From Candidatus Roseilinea sp. (GTDB taxonomy: Bacteria; Chloroflexota; Anaerolineae; J036; Brachytrichaceae), in assembly GCA_026003755.1 (NCBI GenBank), contig BPHV01000001.1, forward strand, positions 186,001 to 250,000: a DNA stretch of 64,000 nt, in the 5' to 3' direction. The position numbers and the translations under genes were made by a program. The notes under the pieces are model-generated. The model had not been told where the DNA came from, ran no database searches, and worked only from the letters and a program-made list of their open reading frames with translations. Shown here one piece after another: positions 1,697 through 17,601 of this stretch. Positions within the stretch are counted from its first letter, which is position 1; every line of letters starts with the position of its first letter.

Positions 1697-2759
1697 CTAC
1701 TTCGTCACGGTCACCTTGCTGACCCCGCGCGATTGATCTGGGTTGTGGCCTAGTTGCAAGGAGAGGTTTAAGGCAAGCAACTGCCCAACGGCGATAAATG
1801 CGATGGGGGCTGAGCAAGCTGGATGGCGCATCCACCACCAGCGCGTTGAGCATGGGATGATCGGGAAGCGCTGCTGCGGCGGGCGAAGTGGCCAAGCAGA
1901 AGATCCGTCCGCCCCGTTCGAGGATGCGCGCGATGACCTGGACCGTCGTCGCTTGCGTCTCGTCGTGATTGAGCAGGATGATGACCGGATACCCCGGCTC
2001 GATCAACGCCAGCGGGCCGTGCAGGAAGTCGGCAGCGGAGTATGCGTGCGCGCTGATGAAGCAAGTCTCTTTCAGTTTAAGGGCAATCTCGTGCGCTGCG
2101 CCGTATGCGTAGCCGCGTCCGATGACCGCCAAGCGCTTCTCCCTGAGGAGGGAGGGGACCCAGGCGGTGAGTAGCGGTTCCCGCGACAGTGCGTTGCGCA
2201 CGTAGTGGGGCAGGCAGTGCAGGTGTTGTTTTAGCGCGGCGTCGTCTTGCATCGCAGCAACCAACCCAGCGTAGGCAGCGCACTGTGCTGTGACGGTCTT
2301 GGTGGCGGCCAACGCGCGCTCGGGGCCGACGTCGAGGAGGAGCACATGCTCAGCAGCCGCAGTGATGGGGGAGCCGGGCGTGTTGGTGATGGCAAGGGTC
2401 ACTGCGCCCTGGCGACGCCCGGCTTCAAGCACGGCGGTAACATCCGCGCCAGCGCCGCTCTGCGAGACGCCGACGACCAGCGCGTCGGCCAGCCGCGGCG
2501 GCGTGCCGTATAGGGTGTAGAGCGAAGGCGCGGCCAGCGCAGTCGGCATGCGCGCTTGCCCTTCGAGCAGATACTTGCCGTAGATGGAGGCGTTGTCGCT
2601 GCTGCCCCGCGCTGCAAGGACGGCGAAAGTGCATGTGCGCGCGGCGTCGGCAATCGGTGGGAGTGCCGCATCGGCGCGCGCAAGCAAGCGCGCGAGCGCC
2701 TCGGGCTGCTCGTAGATTTCGGCGCGCATGTGTGCGCCGGGCGCGTAGGGTTGAGTCAT
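1697..2759 (-). CDS. Double SIS-domain sugar-phosphate isomerase/deaminase (GlmS/GlmD/AgaS-like), frameshifted near 3' end
   Basis: The protein starts with an HMRAEIYEQPEAL segment and has two SIS domains with phosphate-sugar binding motifs (ARGSSDNAS near residue 50, VSQSGAGADV near 98). This is the isomerase half of GlmS without the glutaminase domain, as in GlmD/NagB-II or AgaS. The uninterrupted frame runs to 1578 and overlaps the next gene with an unrelated Arg-rich tail. Removing one G from the five-G run at 1805-1809 (plus strand) restores the family ending, HNPDQSRGVSKVTVTK followed by TAG at 1697-1699. The corrected product is 353 residues, normal for the family, and the overlap becomes a 30-base gap. 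Either the gene is recently broken or the base is a sequencing or assembly error. It follows mrpG by 43 bases. Confidence 0.85.
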
Positions 2760-2802
2760 GCGGTCAACTCGGCAGTGGGTGGTGTGAAGAGGTTGCCGAG
2801 GG

Positions 2803-3177
2803 TCATTCTGCCGGCTCGGCCTGCGCAGGCTGGGGCTGGCGCGCCGAGGCCTGGATGCGTTTGCCGGCCAGATCGTCGCGCATGGCTTGTTTCATTGGAA
2901 TGCCCAGCCGGTAAGACGCTGAGCTGATGGCATGCGAGACCACCGGACCGGCCAGGATCAGTAGCGCGATCAACACCAGCGCCTTGCTCCAAGCCAGCGG
3001 CGTGGCGAACACAGCGGCTACAGTGAGCAACACCACGCCAAATGTCGAGACTTTGCCGGTGGCGTGCATGCGCGCATATACGTCTGGCAGCCGAACCAAA
3101 CCAATGATGCCGATGATCGAAAAGAACGTGCCGATCAGAATGGCGACGGTGGCGATCAGGTAGCCGAAATCTTCCAT
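2803..3177 (-). CDS. mrpG: Mrp Na+/H+ antiporter subunit G
   Basis: The 124-residue membrane protein has three hydrophobic segments and the MrpG/PhaG core GLVRLPDVYARMHATGK at about residues 26-42. MrpG is a small subunit of the multisubunit cation/proton antiporter in the cytoplasmic membrane. It is the last mrp gene of the operon. The C-terminal 35 residues are polar and extend beyond the usual family core. The ATG at 3177 is only three bases from a heptamer repeat array, so no Shine-Dalgarno sequence precedes it. Translation may be weak or coupled to upstream reading. Confidence 0.93.
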   Translation of the reverse strand: MEDFGYLIATVAILIGTFFSIIGIIGLVRLPDVYARMHATGKVSTFGVVLLTVAAVFATPLAWSKALVLIALLILAGPVVSHAISSASYRLGIPMKQAMRDDLAGKRIQASARQPQPAQAEPAE

Positions 3178-3180
3178 AGC

Positions 3181-3284
3181 AGAAGTCAGAGGTCAGAAGT
3201 CAGAAGTCAGAAGTCAGATGCAGGACGCAAGACGCGAGATGCAAAACGCAAAACGTAAAGCTCATAGCCCGCAGCTCACAGCTC
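3181..3284. repeat. Degenerate heptamer tandem array, 15 units
   Basis: Read on the plus strand, the units are AGAAGTC, AGAGGTC, AGAAGTC three times, a six-base AGATGC, AGGACGC, AAGACGC, GAGATGC, AAAACGC, AAAACGT, AAAGCTC, ATAGCCC, GCAGCTC and ACAGCTC. All but one are exactly seven bases, and the unit drifts stepwise from one sequence to another. The array fills the whole gap between the mrpG start (3177) and the mrpF stop (3284-3286); its last base is the first base of the plus-strand complement of that stop. It resembles the heptanucleotide STRR-type repeats described in cyanobacteria. That comparison comes from memory, not from a search. Confidence 0.9.
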
Positions 3285-3559
3285 TAAAACATCTGCCGGT
3301 TGGCGATGTAGCGCACCAAGGCAATTGTGCCAACGTAGCTGATGGCCGATGCGCCGAGCGCTAGATCCATGTAACGCGCATTATCGTTGAGCAAGGTCAG
3401 CAGCACGAAGATGGCCAGCACTAACGTTGCGATGACGTCGGCGGCCACGATGCGATCCATCACCGTCTCGCCGCGCCAAACGCGCTGCACGGCGATGAAG
3501 ATCATCGCCACATGAATCACCAGCGACACAATGGCGACGAGCATGAAGGTCTCTCGCAT
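3284..3559 (-). CDS. mrpF: Mrp Na+/H+ antiporter subunit F
   Basis: The 91-residue protein has three transmembrane segments and the MrpF/PhaF centre GETVMDRIVAADVIATL at about residues 30-46. It is a small membrane subunit of the Mrp antiporter. The ATG at 3559 is preceded by GGAGG seven bases upstream. It lies 21 bases after mrpE and directly before the heptamer array. Length and order are normal for the family. Confidence 0.93.
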   Translation of the reverse strand: MRETFMLVAIVSLVIHVAMIFIAVQRVWRGETVMDRIVAADVIATLVLAIFVLLTLLNDNARYMDLALGASAISYVGTIALVRYIANRQMF

Positions 3560-3580
3560 ATTCCATCCTCCAGCCTGGGG

Positions 3581-4063
3581 TTACTCGAAGATGCTCTGCA
3601 ACATCGCCCGGCGTTTGCGCTGCGCCTCTTCGGCGCCCTCGGCGCTGGTCACTACATCCAGGCAATGCGTGTACATCACGCCGTCGTCGCCGATCTCCAC
3701 AACTTGCTCGCCGGGCGTGACGGTGATGGCGTGCGCGCTGAGCGCGACGCCGAGTTCGCTTTTCATACCGGCTTGGATGGCGATGATGCCCGGGCGGATG
3801 GGCAGCTTGGGGTCGAGCACGATGCGCGCCACGCGGATGCCGTTGCGAATGATGTCTACGCCCAGCCACAACGTGTACCGGGCGAGGTTGAGCAGCGCCA
3901 ACGGCAATCGGCTGAGCGACATGGGCTGGCTGACCGGCCTCAGGATCACGGCAATGGCGCCGCCGATCAGCAACCCAATAACGAGGTTTGATGGCTCAAT
4001 GTTGGCCGTAATGGCCAGATAGATCAGCCAACAGATGAGGGTGAGTCTCAAATATGCGAGCAT
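3581..4063 (-). CDS. mrpE: Mrp Na+/H+ antiporter subunit E
   Basis: The 160-residue protein matches MrpE/PhaE: an N-terminal hydrophobic hairpin (residues 1-45), then a cytoplasmic part with the conserved SELGVALSAHAITVTPGE segment near residues 101-118. MrpE is needed for assembly or activity of the antiporter complex in characterised systems. A GGAG site lies about 11 bases before the ATG at 4063, and the start is 34 bases after the mrpD stop. The C-terminal 25 residues (EGAEEAQRKRRAML) form a charged tail. Confidence 0.93.
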   Translation of the reverse strand: MLAYLRLTLICWLIYLAITANIEPSNLVIGLLIGGAIAVILRPVSQPMSLSRLPLALLNLARYTLWLGVDIIRNGIRVARIVLDPKLPIRPGIIAIQAGMKSELGVALSAHAITVTPGEQVVEIGDDGVMYTHCLDVVTSAEGAEEAQRKRRAMLQSIFE

Positions 4064-4097: not shown

Positions 4098-5642
4098 TCA
4101 TGGGGCGCGGCCTGTCCTTTCGCCCAGCACGGCTTGCACGTACGCTTGCGGCTGGCGAATCCATGCGCTGGTATCTTGCGACAGTTGCAATAACGGCTGC
4201 GCCCAGATACCCAGCAAGAGGCATGTCGTAATCATCAGGCCGGGCGCGAGCAGGCTATCGCCGGAGGGCTTCACTTTGGCATCCGATGAATCCGGCTTGA
4301 ACGGCTCCCACCAGATCTTCATTAATGCGCGAAAGACGTAGACCAGGGTGATGATGCTGGAGACGCCGAGCAGCAACAGCGGCACCCAGTAGGTCAGCGT
4401 TTCGTTCACGTCGCCGCTTTGGGCCGCCTGCACGCCGCTCTGAAACAGGGTTAGCTTGCTGATGAAGCCGTTGGTCGGCGGTACGCCGGCCAGCGCCATA
4501 CCGCCGATGAAGAACAACACGCCGGCCAACGGCGCATACTTGCCTGTGCCACGCAAGACGCCAAACGATGCCGTCTTCACCGGCGCGCGGCTGGCCAGAT
4601 AGCCGCTGAGCATCAACATTGTGCTCTTGACGAGCGCATGATTGAAAGTAAACAGGACGGCCGCTGCCAACGACAGCGGCGTGGCCCAGCCCACGCCGAC
4701 GTGGATGAAACCGATCTGCGCCAGCGTCGAATAGGCGAACATGCGCTTAGCATTGTGTGTGCCGGCTGCGCCTAACCCGCCGAACACGATGCCCACAATG
4801 CCCAGTGCGATGAGCAACGTGCGAGGCCAATCAGCATGCGGCATCAGCAACGTGGTCAGGCGCAGGAAGCCATACACGCCGATCTTCACTACGACCGACG
4901 ATAGCATGGCCGAGACTGGCGTTGGCGAAGCTGTGTGGAAGTCGGGCTGCCAGAAGTGAAAGGGGACGACGGCGCTCTTGATCATGAACGTGACGGCCAG
5001 GAAGACGATGGCTGCCGGCAACAAGGCCGGCGTTTGGTCGGTGGCAATGCGCGCTGCCAGGTCGGCCATGTTCAGCGTGCCGTAGCTGATATACAGGCAG
5101 CCGACGCCGAACAGCAGACAGAACGAGGCCACAGTGCTGATCAGGAAATACTTATAGGCCGCCTCGGGGCCGTAGCGGTCGTCGCTCATGGCGGTGAGCA
5201 CCGTGCCGCTGATCACGATCAGCTCGACCATGACGAACAGGTTGAAGATGTCCCCGGTGAGCATGCCGCCGGTAAGGCCGGTGACCAGGCACAGGAAGAG
5301 CGGGTAGAACGTGGAATGGTGCACTGCCCTGTCCTTGGCCCCAAGTGCATAGATGAAGCCGAACACGAACACGAGCTGCACCATCACGGCCATCGTTGCC
5401 GAGAGCAAGTCGGCGACGATGGTAATGCCGAAAGGCGCCGGCCAATGCCCCATTTGATATACGACCGGCCGGCCGGTGGACCACACCGTCCACAACAGAT
5501 AAGCGCTCGACCCAAACGCGGTGAGCATTGCGCCGAAGGCCCAGGCGGCTTGTAGCCGAAAGTTGCGCCGCAGGAGCAGCGCCACTGCCGCAGCCGTCAG
5601 CGGAATGACGATCGGCAGAATGGCAAGTGAAGATGACATCAT
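4098..5642 (-). CDS. mrpD: Mrp Na+/H+ antiporter subunit D
   Basis: The 514-residue polytopic protein (about 14 transmembrane segments) belongs to the NuoL/M/N-related proton_antipo_M family. It carries the conserved KSAVVPFHFWQPDFHTASPTP stretch near residue 222 and a TFNHALVKSTMLMLSGY segment further on. MrpD is one of the two large antiporter-like channel subunits. Two adjacent ATG codons (5642 and 5639) could start it. It sits between mrpC and mrpE in the usual order. The C-terminal region after residue 440 is a soluble linker followed by one last helix. Confidence 0.95.
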   Translation of the reverse strand: MMSSSLAILPIVIPLTAAAVALLLRRNFRLQAAWAFGAMLTAFGSSAYLLWTVWSTGRPVVYQMGHWPAPFGITIVADLLSATMAVMVQLVFVFGFIYALGAKDRAVHHSTFYPLFLCLVTGLTGGMLTGDIFNLFVMVELIVISGTVLTAMSDDRYGPEAAYKYFLISTVASFCLLFGVGCLYISYGTLNMADLAARIATDQTPALLPAAIVFLAVTFMIKSAVVPFHFWQPDFHTASPTPVSAMLSSVVVKIGVYGFLRLTTLLMPHADWPRTLLIALGIVGIVFGGLGAAGTHNAKRMFAYSTLAQIGFIHVGVGWATPLSLAAAVLFTFNHALVKSTMLMLSGYLASRAPVKTASFGVLRGTGKYAPLAGVLFFIGGMALAGVPPTNGFISKLTLFQSGVQAAQSGDVNETLTYWVPLLLLGVSSIITLVYVFRALMKIWWEPFKPDSSDAKVKPSGDSLLAPGLMITTCLLLGIWAQPLLQLSQDTSAWIRQPQAYVQAVLGERTGRAP

Positions 5643-6044: not shown

Positions 6045-9000
6045 TCACTCCAGGTCACGCTCTGGATGGCCCAGCGTGTCAATGATGAAGATGGCCGCGC
6101 CGAGGACGACCAGACAGATGGCGACCTCGAACAGGAACGACGTGCTGATGTAGAAACCCTTGGGTAAGGGCAACCCCAGCGCCGCGCCGAAGTCGAAGGG
6201 TGAGAAGAATCCGCCGCCTAGGAACACCGGCGCGATTGAGCCGGCCATCACCGTGAGGATGCCGGCGCCGATCAGCAGCCCGGGCCGAAGGAAGCGCAGG
6301 CGACTCCTGGTCTCGTCATAGCCGAAGACGACGTACCAGAAGCCCACGCCCAAACTAAGCGTGACGCCAGCGGTGAAGCCATCGCCCGGCTGGTCGTGGC
6401 CGTAGACCATCTGCACCACAGCCAGCATGAACGCTAATGGCAGCACGATGTAGGCAAGCGCATGGATGAAGGGCGACGTGCGGGCGCCGTCAATGCCGGT
6501 GATCGTGGGCGGCAGCGGCCGTTGCAACAGGGCAACTAAATCCGGCTCAATTTCGCCTTCGGTCGGCAGGCCCGCCGTTTCGCGCCTTTTCATTGCGTAG
6601 CGCAGCAGCGAGAACACGCCGACGCCGGCCATGCTGAACACGGTGATCTCGATCAAAGTATCGAAGCCGCGGAAATCCACCACAATTGCGCCGACGATGT
6701 CGGCAGCGCCGGTGAGCGGCTTGGCATTTTGCTCGTAGTAGGGCGTGACCAGCGAAGTGCGTGGGCGCGAAGCGAAGGCGTAGAGGCACAGCACCGTCAC
6801 CATCGCGCCGCCGGCGACGGCAATGAACGCGTTGCGCATCTGAACGCCGGTGCCGTTCAACCTCTCGGCCCGCTCGCGCTGCGCGCGTGGCAACCGCGAG
6901 AGTGCCAGCACCAGCACCACCAGCGTCAGTGTGTCTACCACCGCCTGAACCAGCGCCACGTCCGGCGACGGTTCGAGGGCGATGACGACGGCCACGGCCA
7001 ACCCCGATGAGCCGAGCGCGATGATGGCCAATAGATCGCGCCGGATGACGATGGAAACGAACGACGCTGCTACGGCCAGCAACAGACCGAAGGCGCGCAG
7101 GGCTGTCTGGGCGTTGAGAGGTTCATTGAAGAGGCGTGCCCACAGAAGATCGGGTAGTGCTGTGCCATCGAACACGCGCCATAAGCCGCCGAACATGATC
7201 ACGAGGGCGAACAGCGCCGTGAGGATCACCGCCAAATAGACGCGGATGCGGCCGGCCTGCGTGCGCGTGATGATGTCGGCTGCGCGGTCCAGGCTGCGCA
7301 GCACGCCGTCGTAGATCAGATTCATGTTCAACGCCGACACGCCCGGGATAGCGCGGATGGGGCTGCGCAGGGTAAACAGGACGATACCCAGCGTGATCGC
7401 GATGCCGCTCAGGATCAGCGGCAGGTTGATCCCGTGAAACAGTTCCAGTGACACCTTGACCTTTGTCCCATAGGCGGCAGTGGCTGCGCTGGCCAGCAAT
7501 TGGGCGATCGCCTCCGGCTGCAGCGCGCCGATGATGAGCGACAATCCGGCCAGGATCGCCGGCCCGAGCAACATGCCGGCCGGTGCTTCGTGGGCGTGCA
7601 CATCGGAGGTGTCGTGTGCGTCGGTGACGTTGAGGCACGGCCACCCCGCTCCCGGCCTGGTCACGAATGTGTCTAGGGTGAACGTCGCGGCTTGAGCCAG
7701 CATCAAGGCGCCGGTGAACACAATAACGGCGGGCAGCGCAGCGCGCAACAAATCCGGCAGAGCGTCCTCCAAGCCTGCGGCCAGGAGCGTCTCCTTGGCC
7801 AGAAAGCCGAATAACGGCGGCAAGCCGGCCATGGAGAGCGCTGCGATGCTGCAAACGACGAACGTCCGGGGCATGACGCGCCAGAGATGACCCAGCCGGC
7901 GCAGGTCGCGCACGCCGGCCTCGTGATCCACGATGCCGGCGATCATGAACAGCGCGCCCTTGTAGAGCGCGTGCGCCAAGACGCCGATCGCCAGCGCCTT
8001 GAACGCCGACGGCGCTTCTTTGCCGATCAACATCATCAATACGCCGAGCTGGCTGACGGTGGAGTAGGCCAGCACGCTCTTCAGATCGCTCTGGCGCAGG
8101 CCGATGATCGCGCCCAGCAGCATGGTGGCGCCGCCGGTCACGATCAGCAGCCAGAACCACATCGGCGTGTTCCCCAGCGCGGGATGCAGACGCGCCATGA
8201 GGTAGATGCCGGCCTTGACCATCGTGGCCGAGTGCAGATAGGCGCTGGCCGGCGTGGGCGCCGTCATTGCCTTGGGCAGCCAGAAGTGGAAGGGCGCCTG
8301 GGCGCTCTTCGTGAATGCACCGAAGGCGATCAGCCCGAGCATGACGGGATACCACGCATCGTTGCGCAAGGCGTCGCCGCTGCGCAGAATCGTCGCCAGG
8401 TCGGTGCTGCCGCTGATGGCCGAGGCAAACAGCAGCCCGGCCAGCAGGGCGATGCCGCCGCCGCCGGTGATGAAAAGCGCCTTGAACGCGCCGCTGCGCG
8501 CCTCTTCGTCTTTGGTCTTGTAGGCGATGAGCAAAAACGACGTGATGCTGGTGCCTTCCCAGAACAGGAAGAGCGTGATCACATCGCCGGCCAGCACCAG
8601 CCCCAACATGCTGGTCATGAACAGGAGGACATACAGGAAGAAGCGCGCGTCGGTGTTGGGGAGTAGAGACTCGGATGTCGGAGGCGCGTGTGACCCCCGC
8701 GCTCTCGTCTCGACTGCTGACCTTTCATCCGCGCGCTTCGGCGTGAAGTAGTAACCGGCGTAGATCAGCACCAGTGCCCCAATGCCGGTGATAATCAACC
8801 CGAACAGCGCGCTCAGGCCATCCAGATAGAACGCGAACTCGACGCCGAGCGCCGGTAGCCAGGGCATGCGCCAGGTCCAGGCATCGCCGGCGGCCATGCG
8901 GGGGAACTGCGACGCGATGGCGATGAAGGCGGTCGCCGGAGCGATGGCCAGCAGCCATCCCAGCGCGCGGGTAGGGATGCGCGCTCCGAATGCCGTTGCC

Positions 9001-16629: not shown

Positions 16630-17601
16630 TCACCTCCTTCTGACAAGATTGTTGATTAGTACAGCTAGGATCAGCACCAGGCCGATCACCATGAACGTAG
16701 CATCGCCTTTGACACCTGTGAGCAGCAGTCCATTACGCAGCAGCGTGATAATGAGCAAGCCCAATACTGTGCCGATGATGCTTCCGCTGCCACCGAAGAT
16801 ACTTGTGCCGCCGAGCACGACGGCAGCAATCACATCTAGCTCCAGACCAGTCGCTGCATCGGCTCGCGTGGTGGTGACGCGCGAGGTAAAGATGAAGGCA
16901 GCTAGGCCGGCCATCAATCCACTGGCCGTGTAGAGCGTAAACTTCACCTGCTCGACCGGAATACCCGAGTAGCGCGCAGCGACCTCATTGTTACCGATAG
17001 CATACACCCAGCGCCCAAAACCCGTGCGCGAGAGCGCCAAATGAGCAATTGCGATCAGCACAACTAAGATGATGAATTGGGTAGGGAAGGGGCCGATCTG
17101 CCCTTGCCCCCAGAAGGCAAACTCCTCAGGGAAGCCACGCGCGGAGCGTGCCTGGCTGATGCCGAACGAGAACCCCCGGTAGATTGCCAGCGTGGCCAAC
17201 GTCGCGATTAGCGGCGGGACGCGCACATAGGCAACCAGCAAACCGTTGACCGCCCCACCCAACAACCCCGTTAGCAGACAGATCAGAACAGCGAGTGGCA
17301 ACGGCAAACCGACTAACTGCCAGGAAAAGCCGAGCATCACCGCGCTCCACGCCAGCATTGAGCCGACAGAGAGGTCAATACCGCCGCTGATGATAATGAG
17401 CGTCATCGGCAGCGCCAGCAACGCCGTCTCGGTGAACAAGCGCGTTTGGTTGAGCAGGTTATTCACCGTGAGAAAACGGTCGGAGAGTAGCGAGAGACCG
17501 ACGATGATCACAAACAAAACAATGAATAGCACGCCCTCCTGAGTACGCAGTAAATTGGTAAGGTGCTTGCGCTCCGGCGCCACAGCAGTCGTCTCAGTCA
17601 T
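16630..17601 (-). CDS. Sugar ABC transporter permease (RbsC/RhaP family)
   Basis: The 323-residue polytopic protein is of the BPD_transp_2 family. Its hallmark segments are IIISGGIDLSVGSMLAWSAV near residue 70, GGAVNGLLVAYVRVPPLIATL near 110, and the cytoplasmic loop YAIGNNEVAARYSGIPVEQVK. The ATG at 17601 overlaps the stop of the upstream permease gene as ATGA, so translation is probably coupled; the longer open frame to 17676 is not needed. It forms the membrane channel together with the neighbouring permease. Confidence 0.93.
   Translation of the reverse strand: MTETTAVAPERKHLTNLLRTQEGVLFIVLFVIIVGLSLLSDRFLTVNNLLNQTRLFTETALLALPMTLIIISGGIDLSVGSMLAWSAVMLGFSWQLVGLPLPLAVLICLLTGLLGGAVNGLLVAYVRVPPLIATLATLAIYRGFSFGISQARSARGFPEEFAFWGQGQIGPFPTQFIILVVLIAIAHLALSRTGFGRWVYAIGNNEVAARYSGIPVEQVKFTLYTASGLMAGLAAFIFTSRVTTTRADAATGLELDVIAAVVLGGTSIFGGSGSIIGTVLGLLIITLLRNGLLLTGVKGDATFMVIGLVLILAVLINNLVRRR

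Follow-up and report, generated by a model that had tools for sequence, protein, structure and literature searches.

The gap between mrpF and mrpG in a hot-spring Chloroflexota bacterium resembling Candidatus Roseilinea is filled by a composite array of seven-base repeats. Comparison of related sequences suggests that it is probably one of the many intergenic heptamer satellites found in Roseilinea and other Chloroflexota: born by slippage, exchanged by recombination and tolerated here as a spacer. The array is real and ordinary in kind, a further case of known intergenic heptamer repeats. What goes beyond routine is a mapped short exchange tract and an unexplained order of the repeat words.

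A composite heptamer array fills the mrpF-mrpG gap

We analyzed a 64-kb stretch of DNA (the window) from a 3.34-Mb assembly of five contigs, referred to as G000. Judged by MrpD, the named genomes closest to it are MAGs of Candidatus Roseilinea, Anaerolineae and Thermoflexales (89-93% protein identity). Between mrpF and mrpG, both on the minus strand, fifteen in-phase heptamers cover 105 bases (3180-3284), beginning at the final base of the mrpF stop codon (3284-3286) and ending 3 bases before the mrpG ATG at 3177 (Table 1). Across the gap, 74 of 99 positions (0.75) match the base seven positions away, compared with 0.14-0.32 at other lags up to 30 that are not multiples of 7, and this gap is the lag-7 peak of the entire window. 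In 2000 dinucleotide shuffles of the gap, the top identity over lags 3-30 never exceeded 0.51. The array thus has both the tandem 7-nt unit and the intergenic location of heptamer satellites. An earlier note on this DNA had described such an array, and its four unit types (AGAAGTC, AAGACGC, AAAACGC and ACAGCTC) are borne out: laid out in register, they keep one phase throughout. It placed the end correctly on the mrpF stop codon but the start at 3181, one base too late.

Table 1. Features of the mrpF-mrpG region (positions in the window)
Feature	Position	Strand	Evidence
Composite heptamer array, 15 units	3180..3284		Lag-7 identity, TRF, shuffles; fills mrpF-mrpG gap
AGAAGTC block, G-skewed end on + strand	3180..3218	+	TRF row, period 7, 5.6 copies
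Middle block, AGGACGC/AAGACGC/AAAACGC types	3216..3255	+	TRF rows, periods 7 and 21
ACAGCTC block, C-skewed end on + strand, runs into mrpF stop codon	3259..3284	+	TRF row; G minus C thirds of array
mrpG, downstream gene	2803..3177	-	PF03334, E 1.2e-20
mrpF, upstream gene	3284..3559	-	PF04066, E 6.6e-11
mrpE	3581..4063	-	PF01899, E 5.2e-31
mrpD	4098..5642	-	PF00361, E 3.6e-55
Recombination tract, G000 G007-like	outer 3137..3307, inner 3149-3293		Informative sites G000/G007/G002

The array belongs to a genome-wide and genus-wide family

We searched for arrays with a rule that was held fixed (at least 21 matches in 28 at lag 7). G000 contains 35 arrays in 1,187,604 bp (6, 11 and 18 in three pieces), and its congener G007 contains 72 in 0.8 Mb (44 and 28 in two 400-kb pieces). 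Control periods of 4, 5, 8, 10, 11 and 13 gave 0-2 arrays per piece in the same two genomes. With 35 arrays in 1.19 Mb and control periods near zero, G000 shows the many copies and the preference for period 7 of heptamer satellites, so the earlier proposal of a genome-wide repeat family, of which the array is one sign, holds and extends to the genus.

Individual words are less evenly spread. Three tandem copies of AGAAGTC (at most one mismatch) occur in 14 of the 99 genomes of the search of relatives (own genome counted), in 11 of the 301 genomes of a phylum sample and, patchily, in 5 of 9 genomes of the genus (this one counted). At 77 MrpD loci from other genomes, lag 7 gave 36 rows (3 of them N runs in L080, which score at every lag) and lag 8 gave 20; the heptamer habit therefore extends past the genus. 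In five distant Anaerolineae (L056, L065, L066, L070 and L087) the same mrpF-mrpG gap holds other short-period repeats with facing arms, and the gap therefore seems to have been colonised repeatedly.

Placement between genes was assessed with a purpose-built gene caller, which is crude and based on ORFs and hexamers. Among gaps of 60-350 bp, 46 of 509 between co-directional genes carry an array, versus 6 of the 227 remaining gaps (odds ratio 3.7, P = 0.0015). With these crude calls, 64 gaps held an array, for a total of 107 arrays in five segments. Arrays in co-directional gaps sit close to their neighbours (median 11 bp to the gene on the left, 8 bp on the right), so the tight fit of the focal array is common. 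Such a fit would be expected of a sequence that grows until it is stopped by coding sequence.

Orthologous sites illustrate how arrays may arise and drift. A 49-bp array at position 6925 of G001 faces a two-unit seed at the orthologous sites of G000 and G007, and an array at 16647 of G002 has clean copies where the sites of G000 and G006 are degenerate at similar total length. An 11.3-kb segment (G007:C1:2178072-2189376, G000:C2:92415-103724) is 96% identical between two genomes that elsewhere mostly share 68-91%, and looks like a recent transfer. Within it, one array is the same at 59 of 59 positions and another measures 47 bp versus 34 bp, an exception to the 7-nt steps seen at mrpF-mrpG. 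These sites fit duplication in seven-base steps plus point mutation, with some changes that are not multiples of seven. Separately, arrays at G007:C1:2154612-2154705 and G000:C2:369494-369584 carry facing arms (GAGATTG...CAATCTC), and in this pair one unit is changed on both arms in a compensating manner (GAGATTG/CAATCTC versus GAGAGTG/CACTCTG).

Relation to known heptamer repeats

The STRR heptanucleotides of heterocystous cyanobacteria are tandem heptanucleotides in intergenic DNA. They share both properties with the present arrays and differ in words and phylum, a comparison made by description only.

Among long simple-sequence repeats, the heptamer is the favoured long unit and is intergenic, according to accounts of Mrazek 2007 in PMC4692102 and PMC4679880; both also relate the suggestion, made in 2007, that the polymerase slips over a footprint of 7 nt. 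The present arrays are alike in unit length and location, but the repeats as described by these citing papers consist of a single unit, whereas ours combine several words in phase. The GGGAATC and GGGGA(C/T)T repeats of Xanthomonas and Nostoc are described in PMC4692102 as heterogeneous heptamers that are 89-93% intergenic and lie mostly between same-direction genes, with 70-75 cases of two sites in convergent orientation. The heterogeneity, intergenic location and preference for same-direction genes are shared with our arrays; the words and phyla are not, and the main feature given there is G-quadruplex potential, whereas none of AGAAGTC, AAGACGC, AAAACGC and ACAGCTC contains a run of three or more G. 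The TAACTGA direct repeats of Beggiatoaceae, Cyanobacteria and Bacteroidetes are described in PMC4679880 as intergenic heptamers near start codons, mixed with other heptamers in some species, with indels mostly in 7-nt steps and a patchy distribution among relatives. In location, indel step and patchiness they resemble the present arrays, but in BOGUAY they comprise two to six copies of one word, and TAACTGA is absent from both strands of the focal array, which places it outside that family. For Chloroflexus and Roseiflexus, PMC4060949 reports a moderate excess of mirror repeats and of purine/pyrimidine stretches.

No support for a displaced ribosome-binding site

The earlier note took the array to replace the normal ribosome-binding region of mrpG. 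The host genome is SD-poor: an SD-like core occurs at -16 to -4 in about 22% of 536 genes and in about 7-11% further upstream. Five of the six congeners without the array also lack an SD core in this gap (GAGG is present in G008 only). The array therefore displaced no normal ribosome-binding site, and that idea is not supported.

These data bear on whether the array could itself act as a translational control element, by analogy with what has been suggested for TAACTGA repeats. The mrpG leader, pyrimidine-rich and weakly folding (CTGACTTC repeats up to 3 nt before the ATG), might favour SD-independent initiation, for example via ribosomal protein S1. The SD-poor genome is in keeping with this, as is the position directly before the start codon, shared with most TAACTGA sets in BOGUAY as described in PMC4679880. 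So is the folding of the gap mRNA, which is weaker than that of shuffles (z +1.87, with 195 of 200 shuffled sequences folding equally well or better). However, the operon is kept without the array in six congeners, with gaps of 8-37 bp, and strand and position are inconsistent: at G000 C1:334149-334223, also between minus-strand genes, the mRNA reads GAGATTG and is purine-rich. We consider such a role unlikely. A stable fold of the array was rejected for both RNA (z +1.87) and DNA (z -0.60). No promoter- or terminator-like site was found in window 2600-3800, and Rfam gave a single chance match, located outside the array and below threshold (20.5 bits; gathering score 70).

Length, presence and exchange at the mrpF-mrpG site

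The site with the array measures 106 bp in G000, 99 bp in G007 and 113 bp in G001, so the lengths of relatives differ by whole heptamers. The array-less gaps are 26 bp in G002 and G003, 12 bp in G006 and G008, 37 bp in G004 and 8 bp in G005. A fixed spacer would have been suggested by a sole array, identical in all relatives; neither half of this holds, as the family is large and the site varies.

Variable length had raised the possibility of a contingency locus, in which heptamer slippage would alter spacing and switch the mrpF/mrpG ratio. The whole-heptamer differences between species agree with it, but when the arrays of G000 and G007 are aligned, 97 of 99 positions agree and a single 7-bp indel separates them, leaving them one unit and two substitutions apart, while their MrpF proteins are only 82% identical (18% different), which argues against fast, slippage-driven switching. 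The array also lies between genes, so unit changes shift no frame, and its units are degenerate; degenerate repeat units lower slippage. On these grounds a contingency locus is very unlikely. The array is not fixed, and it is not a fast switch either.

Selection on the sequence might also explain why the two arrays are nearly identical; the informative sites point to exchange. Up to 40 bp from the gene end, mrpF of G000 is 97.5% identical to that of the array-less G002. Among sites informative for G000, G007 and G002, 55 of 58 between -294 and -25 are G002-like, 9 of 10 at -10, -4 and mrpG +3 to +28 are G007-like, and from mrpG +41 to +176 there are 19 of 21 G002-like sites and 2 three-way sites. 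The simplest reading of this pattern is one double crossover of about 145-171 bp that placed a G007-like segment within G002-like surroundings. Because that tract holds the array, short-tract recombination adds or removes it: either G000 acquired the array from a donor resembling G007, or G002 lost it through exchange with a donor resembling G003. Deeper in mrpG, G007-like stretches recur in G000 (for example at about +272 to +356), mrpE of G000 and G002 is only 79.8% identical, and the trees built from either side of the array conflict (L305/L299/L301, mrp operon). Among congeners the mrp locus is thus a wider mosaic. A second, diverged mrpG match is present in 7 of 9 genus genomes (L290-L297), mostly about 6 kb from the first; G000 and G002 have one match only.

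Presence/absence polymorphism at mrpF-mrpG, together with a composite unit order common to unlinked loci, could also be expected if a MITE- or REP-like element, mobile and dispersed, had inserted in the gap. Such elements have fixed ends or a target-site duplication, but here the length is not fixed (homologues of 99-113 bp), the ends are undefined, and the exchanged piece includes flanking coding DNA on both sides, as in homologous recombination. Other orthologous gaps are likewise not clean empty sites. We therefore regard a mobile element as very unlikely.

Unit order and G-to-C skew

On either strand, the units of long arrays tend to shift from G-skewed to C-skewed. Skew was measured by subtracting G minus C of the last third from that of the first, a value that does not depend on the strand; the focal array follows the trend (+0.17, +0.06 and -0.17 by thirds). 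For arrays of at least 80 bp, positive to negative counts were 7:2 and 10:1 in the discovery pieces, 5:0 in G007b, 10:3 in G001, 13:0 in G026/27/23 and 7:1 of 9 in previously seen other Anaerolineae. The restriction to long arrays and to G minus C was chosen post hoc, once arrays of all lengths had given a null result, and cut-offs were preset only for another family, f67, which gave 10:3 (P = 0.0105). Array-free co-directional gaps of at least 80 bp gave 122:117. Across arrays of any length the first fresh segment was null for this skew (11:13). Purine polarity over all lengths was 17 positive and 8 negative of 30 in G000 and 25 and 8 of 37 in G007 in the discovery data, and null in the first fresh segment (9 and 11 of 25). 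A mean G-to-C trend is also seen in array-free divergent gaps of G000 and G007 (of 104 gaps, 67 are positive and 31 negative) and may be connected with C-rich positions -1 and -2 ahead of start codons.

Some words also recur in order. AGAAGTC-type blocks precede GCT-type blocks 5:0 and AATCTC-type blocks 13:0, at loci fetched after the idea arose, and no GAGATTG-CAATCTC pair is reversed, a self-inverse pairing that is counted up to twice. GAATTGA against AGAAGTC gave 2:1, and GAGATTG and AGAAGTC are unordered (7:5). In a test on exact words few were shared, and the two commonest pairs were inconsistent (2:3 and 2:2).

A reading built on this order, which we hold to be rather unlikely as a whole, combines G-skewed to C-skewed units on both strands and a recurring word order at unlinked loci with a two-ended origin and a trade of tracts of about 150 bp between species. 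For some words at unlinked loci, the order would be AGAAGTC, then GACGC/AAAACGC, then ACAGCTC or CAATCTC. Such arrays might be made by extending the two 3' ends of a break in heptamer steps and joining them without Ku, or alternatively by copying between hairpin arms. Ku-dependent end joining was rejected as the maker, as Ku (PF02735) was found in none of 29 genomes, including the array-rich G000, G001 and G007.

Discussion

The preferred explanation remains that of a slippage-born satellite population. Short heptamer seeds present by chance would give rise to arrays through replication slippage or through template switching in 7-nt steps, and the arrays would then change by point mutation and local re-duplication, which would keep the phase while the unit drifts. 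They may persist where neither coding sequence nor promoter is broken, and the mrpF-mrpG array would act as a weakly folding spacer that is tolerated within the operon, in an organism that is SD-poor. There is no evidence of a switch or dedicated regulator at this site, and the array is most likely non-adaptive rather than a regulatory device. Slippage alone does not explain why the same words occur in the same order at unrelated loci, nor the G-to-C skew trend of long arrays.

Our literature search of open-licence papers found no study of heptamer arrays in Chloroflexota, a phylum in which these satellites prove abundant. At mrpF-mrpG, gain or loss of an array is tied to a mapped recombination tract, and for the mrp operon the result advises caution against assigning a function to the array. 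If the order rule is true, both 5' arms are G-rich and any mechanism must yield G-skewed units on both 5' sides; the bacterial preference for seven-base repeats, and their origin, would then become testable.
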